Shown here piece by piece: positions 20,349 to 26,743 of a DNA stretch of 44,137 nt. Position 1 is the first letter of the stretch; each line of letters starts with the position of its first letter. Below the pieces are notes generated by a model. The model was not told the DNA's origin, did not search any database, and saw nothing but the letters and a program-made list of their open reading frames with translations. A program made the position numbers and the translations under genes. The stretch is from Synergistales bacterium (GTDB lineage Bacteria; Synergistota; Synergistia; Synergistales; Aminithiophilaceae): positions 1 through 44,137 of the forward strand of contig JAHDQY010000037.1 of NCBI GenBank assembly GCA_018433595.1, in the 5' to 3' direction.

Positions 20349-21053
20349 TTACCTGTCCCTTTCGGCCTCATCGGGAGGATGATTTATCGTAAAAATCGTA
20401 AAGGATTGATCTTCAAAGAAAGAACGGCTCTCAACGAAGCGGAAACCGGCCTTCTCCGCTGACGCCCGGATAACGGCCTCTTCCGTGCTGTGCCTCCACC
20501 AACCGTGTCTCCCAGGCCGCCTCTCGACAATCGCCAGCCGGCCGCCGCTTTTAAGCCCTCTCCCGATTCGGCTCAAATAGGGCGTCGGATCGGCCAGATG
20601 GTGAAAAACATTCCTCATGAACAGGAGATCGCAGCTTTTTTCCGGAAGCCAAGGGCCATCGGGATCACAGGGGAAAGGAACAAGATTCAGCAATCCCCTG
20701 CGGCGGGCCTGCCTGACCACTCGGTCCAGCAGGGCTTCATCGATATCGACGGCGAAAACCCGACCGGCCGGTCCTGCCAGTCGGGCCAGCTCCAAGGCGA
20801 AAAGACCGCCGCCGGAACCGATATCGGCGATGACGCTTCCTTCGTGGATGTCGAGGCGCTCCAGGACGGATGCGGCGTCCTTCAGGGCCCTCCGGTTGAA
20901 CAGGACAGCCCGAGCCGAGGCCCAACAGCTCCGGATCAGCCCCCCTCCTTCTGGCACCACCCCCTGCCCGGCCTCTGAGCCGCCGAGGACGACACCGTCC
21001 CGATCGGTCGCGGTATTCACGACCTGTCCCTTTTCGCCAAGAGATCTCTTCAT
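20349..21053 (-). CDS. class I SAM-dependent methyltransferase
   Basis: About 234 residues from the ATG at 21053 (GGAG upstream; the adjacent GTG at 21056 is an equal alternative). The Rossmann-fold motifs are intact: motif I VIADIGSGGGLFALELA, an acidic residue at the end of strand 2 (VFAVDIDEALLD), motif post-II around CDLLFMRNVFHHLADP, and the GLKSGGRLAIVERRP strand. It is of the UbiE/Methyltransf_11/25 type, acting on a small molecule or lipid rather than obviously on RNA or DNA. Neighbours give no substrate. The RND permease gene ends 141 bases upstream in the same direction, so read-through from the efflux operon is possible. Confidence 0.8.
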   Translation of the reverse strand: MKRSLGEKGQVVNTATDRDGVVLGGSEAGQGVVPEGGGLIRSCWASARAVLFNRRALKDAASVLERLDIHEGSVIADIGSGGGLFALELARLAGPAGRVFAVDIDEALLDRVVRQARRRGLLNLVPFPCDPDGPWLPEKSCDLLFMRNVFHHLADPTPYLSRIGRGLKSGGRLAIVERRPGRHGWWRHSTEEAVIRASAEKAGFRFVESRSFFEDQSFTIFTINHPPDEAERDR

Positions 21054-21194
21054 CACGCACAGACTCCTCTCCTGACGATGCTGTCCATCTTCATCCTGCC
21101 TCTCTTTCCGCCTCTCAGCGAGGCCCGTCTCGGAGGCTCTCCGGCCTCTCCGCCATCGGGACTCCATCCTCCGGAAGAGATCGCGCCCAAGGCC

Positions 21195-24100
21195 TCAGCC
21201 CCTCTCTCCGTCGCCGAAGAACAGGCGGTAGAGGACAGGGACGACGACGAGGGTGAGGAAAGTCCCGACGAGGAGGCCCCCCATGATGGTCAGGGCCATG
21301 CCGGCGTAGAGGGGATCCTTCATGAGAGGGATCATGCCGAGAATCGTCGTTCCCGCGGCCATGACGACGGGGCGGAGACGGCTCACCGACGCGTCGGCAA
21401 GGGCCTCCCCGATGGATTTGTCCCCGGCCCTGTCGATCTCGATTTGGTCGATGAGGACGATGGCGTTTTTGATGAGCATCCCCGAAAGCCCCAGGAACCC
21501 CAGGATGGCCATGAAGCCGAAGGCCTGTCCCGTGAGGAGGAAGGCGACTGCGACGCCGATGACGGAAAGGGGGGCCGTCAGGAAGACGATGAGGGCACGG
21601 CGGACCGAATCGAAAAGCCCGATGAGAAGGAGCATCATGCCGGCCAGACAGAGGGGGAAGATGCGCCCCAGGGGCTCGCAAGCCTCCTTCGAGGCGAGAT
21701 ATTCGCCGCCCCATTCGAGGGAATAGCCCGGCGGGAGCTCCAGGGCCTCGACGTCGGGGGCGATCTCCCTGCGGAGCGGCTCGGCCAACCCCCGGACGGA
21801 GTTGGCCTGGACGGTGATCGTCCTCTCGCCGCCGCGGCGACGGATCAAAGGATCCTCCCAGACCGTCTCGACGGAGGAGACGACCTGACGGAGGGGAAGA
21901 TAGCCCCCCTGGAAGTCGCTCCAGACCTGGACGTTGCCGATCTCCTCGGCCGAAAATCGTTCGGCCTCGACGGGACGGGCAAGGATGGGGATCAGCTTGT
22001 CGCCTTCCCGGTAGAGCCCGACGGAGGTTCCGCCGAAGTTCCACTGCAGGGCCGAGGCCACCTCGCGGCGCCCCACACCGCCTCGGCGTCCCCGGTCCTC
22101 GGCGAGAAGGGGACGAAGGACGAAAAGGGGCTGACGCCAATCCGTTCCGATGTCGCGGGCGTCGTCGTGCCGACGCAGCAGGACCTCGCAGCGGCGGGCC
22201 AAGGACTTGAGGAGGCCCGCGTCGGGACCGCGGAGACGGATCTCCAGGGAGTAGGCCCTGGAAGGTCCCGTCATGACGCGGACCAGAGAGAACTCTCCGT
22301 CGGACAGGGTCCGGCGGAGGTGGGCTTCGACGTCGGCGATGACTTTTTCGATGGGTCCGTCCACCTCGACGAGGATCTGGCCGTAGCTGGAATTGGGGCT
22401 TTCGTAGTTGTAGTTCAGGACGTAGCGGAGCGCTCCCTCGCCGACGAAAGAGGCGAAGTTGCGCACGCCGGAAACATGGCGAAGAAAGGCCTCGACGGAG
22501 GCCACTGTCCGGTCCGTCTCCTCGATGGCCGTCCCCTGAGGCTTCCAGATGTTGAGAGAGAAATAGGGCTGCGTCGTAGGGGGGAAAAAGGACTGAGGGA
22601 CGTTGCGGAAAGCGGCCAGGGCACTGAGGAGAGAGATGACGACGAGTCCCGAGAGGAGCCGGGGCCGCCTCAGACAGGCCTGGACGAAACGGCGGTAGAG
22701 GCGCAGGAAGGGGCCGTCGTGAGGATCGCCCTCGGCATCCGAAGGCGGACCGGCAAGGAAAAGGACGCCCAGCAGAGGCACGGCGGTGAGGGCCACGACC
22801 CAGCTGAGAAAGAGGGAAAGGGCCATGACCTGAAAGAGGGATCGGCTGAATTCGCCCACGTTGCCCGGCGCCAGGCCGACGGCGGCGAAGGCCAGGATCG
22901 CCACGGCCGTCGCCCCCAGAAGGGGCCATTGCGTCGCCGCCACGACGGAGCAGGCCGCCTCTTCGGGTCCCTCTCCCCTCGCCATGCGGACGAGCATGCC
23001 GTCGACGACGACGATGGCGTTATCGACGAGCATGCCCAGGGCGAGGATCAGGGCGCCCAGAGAGACCTTCTGGAGCGTCACGCCCATGAGGAACATGCCG
23101 ATGAAAGTGGCCAGAAGGGTGAGCAGGAGCGAAAAGCCGATGAGAAGGCCACTTCTCCAGCCCATGAAAAGCAGCAGAAGGCCGATGACGATGGATAGAG
23201 ACTGGAGAAGGTTGACGACAAACTGGCCGATGGAGGCCACGACGATCTCGTCCTGACCGTAGATCGGCTCCAGCTCCATTCCGAGGGGACGGAGCCCCTC
23301 CAGCTCGGCCAGGCGCCCTCTCACGGCCTCCCCCATGGTCACGACGTTGCCTCCGGCGACGGTCGATATCCCCAGTCCGACGGCCCTTTTGCCGTTGAAA
23401 CGGAGGAGATTGCGGGGCGGGTCCTCGTAGCCCCGCGAGAGGGAGGCCACGTCGCCCAGCCGGACCAGCCCTCCGCCGCCTCCGACGAGAAGATCGCCGA
23501 TGGCCCTCTCGGCTCCGAAATCTCCCGTCGGGGATATGCGGACGTAGCGCCCGCCCACGGCGATGTTGCCGCTCTGTCGGACGAGGTTCTGCGAGAGGAG
23601 AAGGTCCGAAAGGACCTTGGGCGAGAGGGCACTTCTGACGAGGCGGGAGCGGGTGAAATCGAGATAGATCCTCTCCTCCCTCGTCCCCCAGAGGCGGACC
23701 TTGCCCACGTCGCGACAGAGGAGGAGCTCCGATTTCAGCTCCTCGGCGTAATCCTCGAGCTGCCTGTAGGAGTAGCCCTCGCCGGTAACGGCGAAAAAGA
23801 GGCCGTAGACATCGCCGAAATCGTCTGTCACCAGGGAGGCCCCCGCCCCCGGAGGCAGGAGGCGCTGGGCGTCGCCCACCTTGCGGCGCAGTTCGTCCCA
23901 GACCTGGGGGAGCTCGGCGGCCCTGTAGCGGTCCTTTATGTCGACGAAGACGATCGACAGCCCCTCCTGAGAGGTCGAGCGAAAGCACTTCACCTGCTCC
24001 ATGGACTGAACGGCCTCTTCGATGACGTCGGTGACCTCCTGCTCCGTCTCCTCCGGCGAGGCACCGGGATAGGCCGTGAGAATCATGGCCGTCTTGATGG

Positions 24101-24227
24101 AGAAGGAGGGGTGCTCGAGACGGCCCAGCCTGCCGTAGGCGAGGGCTCCCGCTCCGACGAGCAGAAGGATGAGGACGATCGTCAACGTCCGCCTGTGCAG
24201 GGAAAAGGCCGCCGGGTTGAAGGCCAT
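21195..24227 (-). CDS. RND efflux transporter permease (AcrB family)
   Basis: About 1010 residues from the ATG at 24227; longer frames run into the adaptor gene and are rejected. It is an inner-membrane proton/drug antiporter with the twofold AcrB layout. TM1 (LHRRTLTIVLILLLVGAGALAYGRL) and a large periplasmic loop with YPGASPEETEQEVTDVIEEAV come first. The TM4 segment LGMLVDNAIVVVDGM corresponds to the family's GLLVDDAIVVVEN, with Asn replacing one of the two proton-relay Asp residues. The second half has FGFMAILGFLGLSGMLIKNAIVLID. This Asp-to-Asn change is common in CzcA/MdtB-like subgroups and needs alignment. It follows the adaptor gene by ten bases. No outer-membrane channel gene is in the window. 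Confidence 0.92.
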   Translation of the reverse strand: MAFNPAAFSLHRRTLTIVLILLLVGAGALAYGRLGRLEHPSFSIKTAMILTAYPGASPEETEQEVTDVIEEAVQSMEQVKCFRSTSQEGLSIVFVDIKDRYRAAELPQVWDELRRKVGDAQRLLPPGAGASLVTDDFGDVYGLFFAVTGEGYSYRQLEDYAEELKSELLLCRDVGKVRLWGTREERIYLDFTRSRLVRSALSPKVLSDLLLSQNLVRQSGNIAVGGRYVRISPTGDFGAERAIGDLLVGGGGGLVRLGDVASLSRGYEDPPRNLLRFNGKRAVGLGISTVAGGNVVTMGEAVRGRLAELEGLRPLGMELEPIYGQDEIVVASIGQFVVNLLQSLSIVIGLLLLFMGWRSGLLIGFSLLLTLLATFIGMFLMGVTLQKVSLGALILALGMLVDNAIVVVDGMLVRMARGEGPEEAACSVVAATQWPLLGATAVAILAFAAVGLAPGNVGEFSRSLFQVMALSLFLSWVVALTAVPLLGVLFLAGPPSDAEGDPHDGPFLRLYRRFVQACLRRPRLLSGLVVISLLSALAAFRNVPQSFFPPTTQPYFSLNIWKPQGTAIEETDRTVASVEAFLRHVSGVRNFASFVGEGALRYVLNYNYESPNSSYGQILVEVDGPIEKVIADVEAHLRRTLSDGEFSLVRVMTGPSRAYSLEIRLRGPDAGLLKSLARRCEVLLRRHDDARDIGTDWRQPLFVLRPLLAEDRGRRGGVGRREVASALQWNFGGTSVGLYREGDKLIPILARPVEAERFSAEEIGNVQVWSDFQGGYLPLRQVVSSVETVWEDPLIRRRGGERTITVQANSVRGLAEPLRREIAPDVEALELPPGYSLEWGGEYLASKEACEPLGRIFPLCLAGMMLLLIGLFDSVRRALIVFLTAPLSVIGVAVAFLLTGQAFGFMAILGFLGLSGMLIKNAIVLIDQIEIDRAGDKSIGEALADASVSRLRPVVMAAGTTILGMIPLMKDPLYAGMALTIMGGLLVGTFLTLVVVPVLYRLFFGDGERG

Positions 24228-24237
24228 CGTCCCGGCC

Positions 24238-25368
24238 CTACCGCGAGGCGAGGGGCCTGACGGCCATCCCGTCGACGACGAAGGCGGCCCCGGCCGTGAC
24301 GATCCGCTCCCCCTCGACGAGGCCGCCTCGGACGACGAGGCGATCGGGGCCGCCGCAGGGCCCCACGTCGATGGGGCGTCGCGACACTGTCGACGTCGCC
24401 GGATCGAAGACGAAAACCGTCGGAGCTCCCCCGTCGTCGGCGACGACGGCATCGGCGGGAACGGTCAGGACGCTCGCCCTCTTCGTCTCGGCCCAGGCCA
24501 GTTCTCCTGTCATCCCCGGCAGAAGGCGCAGCTCCGGAGGCGAGGCGAGAGAAAAGGTCACGCCGTAGGTGCCCGTCGCCCTGTCCGGGGCGGCGCTCCA
24601 CTCCTTCAGAAAGACGGAGAAGACCCTATCGGGGAGGGAATGGAAGGTGACGAGGGCCTCCTCTCCTCCTGTCAGGGACCTTTCGGCGACCTCGCCTTCG
24701 GGGATGTCGACCCTGACGTCGACGCGGGAGAGATCGAGAAGGGTGAGGACCGTCTGCCCCGCCGAGACCATCTGGTGGACGTCGACGTCCCGCGTCGCCA
24801 CGACGCCGTCAAAGGGGGCGCGGAGGCGGCAGTCCTCTCGGCTGTGCCGGGCTCCGGCAAGACGGCTCTCGGCACCCCGCAGTGCGGCGGAGGCCCGATC
24901 GTAGGCACTCCGGGCACTGTCAAAGCTCGCCTGGGCGATGACCGCCTCGGCCAGGAGGGAACGGGCCCGCTTCAGATCGAGGCGGGCCTGATCAAGGTTA
25001 ACGGCGGTCATCTCCCTCTCGGCCTCCAGCATCCTCAGGACGTCGTCGAAATCACGGCGGTCGATTTCGAGCAGCACGTCTCCCCGACGGACCGCGTCGC
25101 CAGGCTGAACGGAAACGGCCGAGAGGGGGCCGCCGACGCGGAAAGAAAGGGGAATCTCCTTCGAGGCCAGAACCGTGACAGGGTAGCGGTTGGAGCTTTC
25201 TTCCCGTGAGGAGCGGACCTCTTCGATCCCGACCGGCCTGGGCCAGGCCGGTGAGGTCTCCCCTTCCACGGGCACGGTCTGCCGATCGAGGCACAAAAAA
25301 GCGACAGCCGCCGCCGCGATCGCGGCGACGCAGAGAAAGACCATTACCCTTCTCGTCCTCTTTGCCAT
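24238..25368 (-). CDS. RND periplasmic adaptor (HlyD/AcrA membrane fusion protein)
   Basis: About 376 residues from the ATG at 25368 (AAAGGAAG upstream; another ATG ten codons earlier is possible). An N-terminal membrane anchor (RRVMVFLCVAAIAAAAVAFLCL) is followed by the lipoyl-type half-motif (VGGPLSAVSVQPGDAVRRGDVLLEID), an alpha-hairpin (about 110-190), the second half-motif LRAPFDGVVATRDVDVHQMV, and beta-barrel and membrane-proximal domains. It bridges the RND permease to an outer-membrane channel. There is no lipobox. The first gene of the efflux operon; a 15-bp motif shared with the marR promoter lies 108 bases before its start. Confidence 0.9.
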   Translation of the reverse strand: MAKRTRRVMVFLCVAAIAAAAVAFLCLDRQTVPVEGETSPAWPRPVGIEEVRSSREESSNRYPVTVLASKEIPLSFRVGGPLSAVSVQPGDAVRRGDVLLEIDRRDFDDVLRMLEAEREMTAVNLDQARLDLKRARSLLAEAVIAQASFDSARSAYDRASAALRGAESRLAGARHSREDCRLRAPFDGVVATRDVDVHQMVSAGQTVLTLLDLSRVDVRVDIPEGEVAERSLTGGEEALVTFHSLPDRVFSVFLKEWSAAPDRATGTYGVTFSLASPPELRLLPGMTGELAWAETKRASVLTVPADAVVADDGGAPTVFVFDPATSTVSRRPIDVGPCGGPDRLVVRGGLVEGERIVTAGAAFVVDGMAVRPLASR

Positions 25369-25398: not shown

Positions 25399-25662
25399 GC
25401 TCCACGCTACGGCGAAAGACGCTCCGACAGGCCTGCCTCCAAAAGCCTTCGCCGAGGGGAAACCTCAGGAGAGGTGTTTAGGTGCTATACATCTTAAAAA
25501 CAAAGAACATCTGCCCCTCGTCGCCTTGAGCGGCGAGGAGACCTCTATGGAGGCGGCCAGCAAGGCCGCATTTCAGGGAAAGGTCCCTCTCGGGCGACAG
25601 GGACCGCAAGACGGGGAGGACCTATTCCGAAAACCTCCGGCGAGCGGAATTGCAGAGGTCCC
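25399..25662. other. non-coding spacer between efflux operon and methyltransferase
   Basis: I see no gene here. Besides the operator at 25476 it contains two small hairpins: GCGGCC/GGCCGC (25553-25569) and GGTCCCT/AGGGACC (25582-25605). A further CTCGTCGC/GCGGCGAG pairing lies around 25517-25538. On the minus strand, reading toward the pump genes, they may form a terminator region for the upstream methyltransferase gene, though no good T-run follows. Some of this may be the decayed 3' end of that gene. Confidence 0.5.
25476..25490. promoter_or_regulatory. putative MarR operator 1 (RND operon)
   Basis: GTTTAG-GTG-CTATAC. It shares both half-sites (GTTTAG and CTATAC, three bases apart) with the tandem sites near 26139-26168 and CTATAC with the marR promoter site. 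It lies about 108 bases upstream of the adaptor start, within an AT-rich stretch that could hold the operon promoter. Confidence 0.6.
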
Positions 25663-26109
25663 TCACTCCCTCCGATCTTCTCCGGCAACGGCCGCAACGG
25701 AAAAAACTTCCTCTCCGGAAGAGGAGGGGCAAGAGAGAGCGGGCCCTTTGCGGAAAAGCTGGCGGCGGGCTATGGAATTGATGTAGCCGTCCGCCTCGGA
25801 AAGAAGTCCCTGTTCGCGACAGAGTCGGGGATAGACGTTGTTCCAGTTGTCTTTGTTCCCCTCGCCCCAGCAGCAGAGGGGGAACCAAACGATGCCCCAG
25901 ATCCTGGCCTCCTCGTGGGACCGGGAGGCCAGGAGAAGCATCATGGAACCCGGGCCGCAGCCCAGATCGAGGGCCCTCTCCCTCGCCCCGAGAACCAGCG
26001 CCCCCAGGGCCTTTCTGTAGAAGGGGGCCTTCATGCCGAAAAGGGCTGCGAACCGATCGTAGCAGGCACCTCCGCAAAGCCCCGTGAAGACCCGTCCCTT
26101 GTCTTTCAT
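25663..26109 (-). CDS. internally shortened SAM-dependent methyltransferase
   Basis: A 148-residue frame from the ATG at 26109 (AGGAGG eight bases upstream). Residues 1-60 look like the N-terminal half of a small class I methyltransferase: RVFTGLCGGACYDRFAALF, then motif I ALDLGCGPGSMMLLLA and EEARIWGI. The expected acidic strand 2 and motifs II-III are absent. Instead the frame passes directly to VWFPLCCWGEGNKDNWNNVY and YINSIARRQLFRK, which I recall as a C-terminal pattern of such methyltransferases. The final 25 residues look unrelated. The simplest reading is an in-frame internal deletion of some 70-90 codons plus an altered end, so the product is probably inactive. Tandem MarR-type operators precede it, and marR is just upstream. 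Confidence 0.6.
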   Translation of the reverse strand: MKDKGRVFTGLCGGACYDRFAALFGMKAPFYRKALGALVLGARERALDLGCGPGSMMLLLASRSHEEARIWGIVWFPLCCWGEGNKDNWNNVYPRLCREQGLLSEADGYINSIARRQLFRKGPALSCPSSSGEEVFSVAAVAGEDRRE

Positions 26110-26138
26110 GGTCCTTTCCTCCTCTCTGGGCACATATG

Positions 26139-26153
26139 GTTTAGAGTCTATAC
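26139..26153. promoter_or_regulatory. putative MarR operator 2 (methyltransferase promoter)
   Basis: GTTTAG-AGT-CTATAC, directly abutting an equivalent site at 26154-26168. The two form a tandem array 30 bases upstream of the methyltransferase ATG, in the gap after marR. Confidence 0.65.
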
Positions 26154-26168
26154 GTTTAGCTCCTATAC
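26154..26168. promoter_or_regulatory. putative MarR operator 3 (methyltransferase promoter)
   Basis: GTTTAG-CTC-CTATAC, the second unit of the tandem. The six-base half-sites are identical in both copies while the central three bases differ, as expected of protein-binding half-sites rather than a simple repeat expansion. Confidence 0.65.
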
Positions 26169-26184
26169 GGTTTAACAACAAAAC

Positions 26185-26655
26185 TCACTCCTTCTCGGTC
26201 GAAAATCTGTCCAGGGCAAGAGTCAGCCTCGAGATGAAGTCCTGCAGAAACGCTCTTTCCTCCTCCGTGGCCCCCTGCAGAAGCCCCTCGACGAGGTCGT
26301 CGAAGTCGCGGTGGGCCCTCTCATGGACGGAATAGGCCCTTTCCCCCTTGGCCGTCAGGGAGAGGACGACGCGGGCCCTGTTGGCAGGATCGCGGTCCTT
26401 GACGACCATGCCCTTCTCCTCCAGTTTTTTGACGAGTTGGGAGACGGCCCCCTTCGTTACGCCCAGCCTGTCGGCCAGGGCCGTGAGGTGAGCCTCCGGG
26501 TGTTCCCTGATGGCCTTGATCATGTGGATCTCGGCGATGAAAAGGGGCTGGTCCGTTCCGTAAGTATGGGTCTTTCGCTCCAGATCCTGGAGGCGGACGA
26601 TGATGGAAAGAAGACCGTAGCTGACTTTTTTTCGGCACAGCGTCGATTTTTTCAT
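26185..26655 (-). CDS. MarR-family transcriptional regulator
   Basis: A 156-residue winged-helix regulator. The central part has the MarR recognition region: HPEAHLTALADRLGVTKGAVSQLVKKLEEKGMVVKDRDPANRARVVLSLTAKGE, that is HTH, recognition helix and the wing with Asp-Arg. Flanking helices form the dimer interface. It probably represses itself, the adjacent methyltransferase and the RND pump, since a shared 15-bp motif precedes all three. The ATG at 26655 has no Shine-Dalgarno site and a palindromic operator ends eight bases upstream of it, so the transcript may be nearly leaderless. MarR proteins usually release DNA on binding phenolic or antibiotic ligands; the ligand here is unknown. Confidence 0.9.
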   Translation of the reverse strand: MKKSTLCRKKVSYGLLSIIVRLQDLERKTHTYGTDQPLFIAEIHMIKAIREHPEAHLTALADRLGVTKGAVSQLVKKLEEKGMVVKDRDPANRARVVLSLTAKGERAYSVHERAHRDFDDLVEGLLQGATEEERAFLQDFISRLTLALDRFSTEKE

Positions 26656-26662
26656 GGCTGAA

Positions 26663-26681
26663 GCATATAGCAGCTATACGC
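26663..26681. promoter_or_regulatory. putative MarR operator 4 (autoregulatory, marR promoter)
   Basis: GCATATAGC-A-GCTATACGC is a near-perfect palindrome (one mismatch pair), eight bases before the marR ATG. Its core ATATAG-CAG-CTATAC (26665-26679) aligns with the three other sites; the ideal symmetric form would be GTATAG-N3-CTATAC. Confidence 0.65.
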
Positions 26682-26743
26682 TGTCGTCAAGCCCCCGATG
26701 TCGATGGTCGTGATGGCGTCCCACGCCGACGGTCCGGATGAAA

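Follow-up and report, generated by a model that had tools for sequence, protein, structure and literature searches.

Copies of one short inverted motif precede a marR gene, a methyltransferase gene and the genes of an RND efflux pump in a Synergistales bacterium, which raises the question of whether these genes form a single regulon and whether the regulator encoded among them is the protein that occupies the motif. The window, i.e., the whole stretch of DNA that was analyzed, was 44,137 nucleotides in length, with 65% GC. All genes of the locus were encoded on the minus strand, and the following features were assigned:

26662–26690, minus strand: predicted marR promoter, TTGACG - 17 bp - TATGCT, from a promoter scan
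26665–26679, minus strand: putative marR operator, GTATAGCTGCTATAT on the coding strand, inside a 21-bp near-palindrome (AGCGTATAGCTGCTATATGCT) and filling the spacer of the marR promoter
26185–26655, minus strand: marR, a 156-aa MarR-family winged-helix regulator (Pfam PF12802/PF01047 above cut-off)
26154–26168, minus strand: first of two abutting putative methyltransferase operators, GTATAGGAGCTAAAC on the coding strand
26139–26153, minus strand: second abutting putative operator, GTATAGACTCTAAAC on the coding strand; the pair is kept in G001 and G002
25663–26109, minus strand: remnant of a SAM-dependent methyltransferase, 148 aa, from comparison with the G001 relative
25476–25490, minus strand: putative RND adaptor operator, GTATAGCACCTAAAC on the coding strand, kept in G001, G002 and G021
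24238–25368, minus strand: RND periplasmic adaptor (membrane fusion protein), 376 aa (TIGR01730, 236 bits, above cut-off)
21195–24227, minus strand: RND permease of the AcrB/AcrD/AcrF family, 1010 aa (PF00873, E 9.6e-141)
20349–21167, minus strand: second class I methyltransferase, co-directional (PF08241)

The regulator belongs to the MarR family, with profile scores of 42.4 bits for PF12802 (cut-off 27) and 41.6 bits for PF01047 (cut-off 24.6). A MarR fold was predicted by its AlphaFold model (mean pLDDT 87.5), the top solved-structure matches of which were 3bpx (MarR protein) and 6jbx (FabT bound to DNA).

Motif sites in the window and the genome

The earlier note had placed four copies of the motif at positions 26665, 26154, 26139 and 25476, assigning one to marR, two abutting ones to the methyltransferase and one to the RND adaptor. 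The positions were confirmed to the base and the assignment held: the sites were ATATAGCAGCTATAC (26665–26679), GTTTAGCTCCTATAC (26154–26168), GTTTAGAGTCTATAC (26139–26153) and GTTTAGGTGCTATAC (25476–25490), with a symmetrical consensus of GTATAG-N3-CTAWAC. The marR site was the most symmetrical of the four; the tandem pair, with centres 15 bp apart, and the RND site were asymmetric, reading GTATAG...CTAAAC in the sense of transcription.

A search of the window for GTWTAGNNNCTATAC with up to two mismatches returned these four sites only, a number reached in none of 100 dinucleotide shuffles. In the genome (2,530,233 bases), the four sites of the locus were likewise the only matches to GTWTAGNNNCTAWAC with up to one mismatch; the reversed control pattern gave three matches genome-wide. 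The pattern TAGNNNCTATAC matched exactly four times, always at the locus. The earlier note had named frequent occurrence in coding DNA as an observation that would speak against a regulon; no such abundance was seen, as the genome held no other site with up to one mismatch.

The 2.53-Mb Synergistota genome thus contained three perfect sites and one site with one mismatch, all within 1.2 kb. Base composition alone predicts about 0.10 perfect sites and about four sites with up to one mismatch per genome. The one-mismatch count taken by itself was therefore unremarkable, which is the point in favor of a chance origin, i.e., of an AT-rich inverted repeat recurring in the intergenic DNA of a GC-rich genome. 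What is remarkable is the three perfect sites, against 0.10 expected, and the clustering of all four in 1.2 kb, with a gene beginning shortly after every site. Moreover, the motif was conserved across families and occurred on a contig of another phylum (see below). Chance is refuted by the clustering and by the retention of the motif alongside the marR orthologue, and has a negligible probability.

Conservation of the putative operator and turnover of its probable targets

We surveyed 188 Synergistota genomes, taking as close orthologues of marR the proteins with E below 1e-40 (47–100% identity). Such an orthologue was found in 11 genomes, and in all 11 a perfect site lay within about 100 bp of marR, so the motif was not absent beside orthologous genes, the second finding that according to the earlier note would have counted against it. 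A perfect site anywhere was found in 13 of the 177 remaining genomes (Fisher p 1.3e-11, uncorrected for the common descent of the genomes, which makes them less than fully independent). Ten perfect sites not adjacent to marR were inspected; all lay inside long ORFs. Weaker MarR homologues in eight other Synergistota genomes had no perfect motif alongside; six of nine such loci were read directly (five of the eight genomes plus the second MarR of G117). A motif general to MarR proteins was rejected on this basis.

The possibility that a different regulator binds the motif, such as a global AT-rich binder, with marR merely one of its targets, was also considered. Binding of the sites by the MarR protein is what we infer, and a CodY-like protein with AT-rich palindromic boxes (AATTTTCWGAAAATT and AAAATT-N15-AATTTT) has been described in Synergistetes (PMC9318921). 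A CodY-like regulator was rejected because its published boxes are unlike GTATAG-N3-CTATAC. A global regulator would have many sites, whereas four were found here in one locus, and the motif was present in all 11 genomes with a marR orthologue and rare elsewhere. We regard a different binding protein as very unlikely, and the MarR protein itself as the very probable occupant of the sites.

At least two sites with up to one mismatch were present in each of the 11 loci, one preceding marR and another preceding the gene that follows it. The 29 Synergistota sites followed GTATAG-N3-CTA(T/A)AC, with arms that were invariant or nearly so and free central bases, which bears out the earlier description of conserved half-sites around a variable three-base centre. 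Such a pattern is expected for a dimer-binding operator, with one symmetric dimer presumably seated at each site. The congeners G001 and G002, each matched on a single chromosome-sized contig, had the same four-site layout (one site at marR, an abutting pair at the methyltransferase and one at the adaptor).

The gene next to marR varied. It was a methyltransferase of the window type in the window, G001, G002, G021, G035 and G038. In G042 and G039, marR was followed directly by a relative of the second methyltransferase, and in G116–G118 by a different RND operon. Homologues of the methyltransferase in G109 and G123 had no close MarR homologue in the 10–11 kb fetched and no motif within 180 bp upstream; thus, this control does not extend to every such methyltransferase.

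A further regulator, 42% identical, was found adjoining a MATE transporter gene on a contig labelled Spirochaetia (JAIPFY010000064.1; L024:4280–4967). Its own promoter contained the perfect site GTATAGCTGCTATAC, and two sites preceded the MATE gene, one perfect and one with one mismatch. This occurrence may reflect lateral transfer or a mis-binned contig. A single regulator site combined with a pair of target sites was thus found in the window, G001 and G002 (methyltransferase) and on this contig (MATE); the remaining Synergistota loci had a single site at the target.

The methyltransferase of the window lacks 261 nt (87 codons) in frame compared with its 235-aa G001 relative (L012:3547–4254). 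The deletion spans exactly the stretch between two 12-bp direct repeats, TCTGGGGC(A/G)TCG. The remnant retains 148 codons in frame, with much of the catalytic domain gone and no Pfam match at E 0.001. To judge from this comparison, the methyltransferase of the window is probably inactive, or else the deletion is an assembly error. One point of the earlier proposal needs correcting: the methyltransferase gene behind the two abutting sites is, in this genome, a deletion remnant. In the congeners, the G002 methyltransferase had an additional one-base frameshift, and in both G001 and G002 the RND adaptor had a frameshift close to residue 242, with its end joined to the permease at about residue 302 (L012:4557–7725 and L013:4497–7657), whereas the pump of the window was intact. 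With the methyltransferase seemingly inactivated in the window and the pumps broken in G001 and G002, the regulon may be in partial decay within the genus. The regulator and operators were intact in all three, while the broken targets differed, so the genus has retained the switch and lost one or another of the genes under its control.

The congeners also encoded a second RND permease (65% identical) upstream of marR on the same strand (L012:1–2505 and L013:1–2439), near which there was no motif site beyond the four of the regulon.

Promoter geometry and the proposed repression

The marR promoter was the only one found by the promoter scan of 7 kb of the window. The operator occupies the -35/-10 spacer of this sigma-70-like promoter, and in the marR promoters of the compared loci its last three bases are the first three of the -10 box (TAC or TAT). 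The scan identified a TTG(A/C)C hexamer separated by 17 bp from the -10 box in 10 of the 11 Synergistota marR promoters; the eleventh had TTGTCA at 17 bp, as read by eye, and the promoter on the Spirochaetia-labelled contig had an 18-bp spacer. By sequence geometry, the palindromic operator overlapped the regulator's own promoter in the 11 Synergistota orthologues and in the Spirochaetia homologue. The marR start codon followed the -10 box by 6–7 nt in all 12 loci (6 nt in the window; L012 and L066 read from the sequence by eye), and no Shine–Dalgarno sequence was visible before it. For these two reasons a leaderless mRNA is predicted for marR. Unlike marR, the methyltransferase gene had a purine-rich leader in the window, G001 and G002.

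A genome search for TTGAC-N18-TANNNT with ATG 5–8 nt past the -10 box gave seven matches (26653–26690 of the window and six others) vs. two for the reversed control; some of them may mark additional leaderless genes.

The CTAAAC arm of the methyltransferase and RND sites overlapped a weaker -10-like TAAACA/G; the right half of the RND site overlapped the weak -10 box of TTGTTT - 17 bp - TAAACA. These two promoters are less certain because their -35 boxes are weak. Just upstream of the RND promoter, a GC-rich hairpin (25516–25538, CCTCGCCGCTCAAGGCGACGAGG on the minus strand) was found, also in G001 and G002, with no T run directly behind it; an attenuator or a processing site is possible.

A MarR-type repressor is very probably seated at the four sites, switching off marR, the methyltransferase and the pump. 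It is highly likely, judging by the position and conservation of the sites, that they would serve as operators of a MarR dimer that represses its own gene, the methyltransferase and the RND operon through separate operators and is released by a ligand. One dimer of the regulator (encoded at 26185–26655) would occupy each site. Since the operator fills the promoter spacer and extends three bases into the -10 box, a bound dimer should keep RNA polymerase off the marR promoter, and the two would exclude each other there, resulting in autorepression. The separate operators downstream would allow repression of the methyltransferase and of the RND efflux operon, and a ligand freeing the dimer would induce all units together. 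Detoxification by modification and export is the role that we infer.

The regulator could instead be an activator, or it could repress marR alone, the other sites being decayed or non-functional. Consistent with this, the methyltransferase and RND promoters have weak -35 boxes, the methyltransferase and RND genes are damaged in one or more congeners, and some MarR proteins, such as SlyA (PMC5797941), are activators. However, the sites before the next gene were kept in 11 of 11 loci, and the RND site also in G021, where the target genes are intact; furthermore, the overlap of an operator with the -10 box is a repressing position. We consider either variant improbable and retain repression of all units. 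The linking of marR, the methyltransferase and the RND pump into one regulon, as proposed by the earlier note, is supported by the near-exclusivity of the sites to this locus and their conservation with the orthologue, with the binding itself putative. The arrangement was kept across distant relatives, and the regulon is therefore taken as real and of a familiar kind.

Relation to known MarR-type systems

Literature searches for the motif or for a Synergistota MarR regulon returned nothing directly relevant. The closest system in layout was MepR–MepA of Staphylococcus aureus. According to a review (PMC8698293), MepR is a MarR-family repressor whose gene immediately precedes that of an efflux pump and which shuts off both genes; the operator of the regulator gene holds a single inverted repeat, and that of the target holds two. 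The locus of the window resembles it, with one site at marR and two abutting ones at the methyltransferase, and so does the Spirochaetia-labelled contig, with one site at marR and two before the MATE gene. The likeness is one of layout: MepR belongs to a different protein branch with distant similarity (27–28 bits), and the genes targeted here encode a methyltransferase and an RND pump.

FabT was the best NCBIfam match of the regulator and was among its best sequence and fold matches, although the score for the equivalog NF050133 (57.9 bits) was below the 200-bit cut-off; that for AdcR/ZitR (NF038251, 35 bits) was below the cut-off of 175 bits. Unlike those of FabT and AdcR/ZitR, the targets here are efflux and methylation rather than lipid synthesis or zinc uptake, and the operator GTATAG-N3-CTAWAC differs from the ZitR/AdcR box TTAACYRGTTAA (PMC6372160). 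Three histidines of the regulator (His44, His111 and His115) were invariant in nine diverged homologues, and FabT also has His at the aligned positions. Zinc site 1 of AdcR is formed by Glu24, His42, His108 and His112 (PMC6372160); the spacing of the three histidines fits His42, His108 and His112, a putative match of positions that FabT shares, and the position of Glu24 was not conserved. The invariant trio, the histidines of FabT and the AdcR-like spacing leave both a metal and an acyl ligand possible.

The locus also resembles the MexR and MarR systems of Gram-negative multidrug pumps, in which a MarR-fold repressor adjoins an RND pump, and the regulator model matched MexR in fold. The sequences are distant (20% identity in the fold alignment), the likeness lies in fold and neighborhood, and the single-locus regulon here, unlike those of MexR and MarR, includes a methyltransferase. 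CrtR of Corynebacterium glutamicum is a MarR-type autoregulator with a single-locus regulon and a reportedly leaderless transcript of its own (PMC5401885), as is predicted for marR of the window. CrtR, however, controls carotenoid genes through an operator with an essential TTAA element (PMC5401885), and no clear promoter motif was found for crtR, unlike marR of the window.

Methylation of metalloids by an ArsM-like enzyme was not supported, as no known arsenite methyltransferase model reached its cut-off. Beyond the DLGCGPG motif, the only cysteines common to six homologues of the methyltransferase were two: one mid-protein and one in a C-terminal P-x-(L/I)-C segment.

As a tentative and less probable extension, the regulator may represent an undescribed MarR branch with an invariant three-His set and the GTATAG-N3-CTATAC class of operator, sensing a metal-linked or other toxic ligand. 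Made from a leaderless, self-repressed mRNA, it would then control a 'methylate and export' defence shared by Synergistota with one or more Spirochaetia lineages, in which the pump type (RND or MATE) and the methyltransferase are swapped while regulator and operator stay fixed.

The locus provides a MarR regulator with an operator that is defined and can be tested, in a phylum with few regulons worked out, and mapping of transcription starts could check the prediction of a leaderless, self-repressed marR mRNA. The regulator–operator pair is fixed, while the targets vary: methyltransferase and RND pump, methyltransferase alone, another RND pump or MATE. The locus is thus a compact case of the rewiring of a resistance-type regulon.
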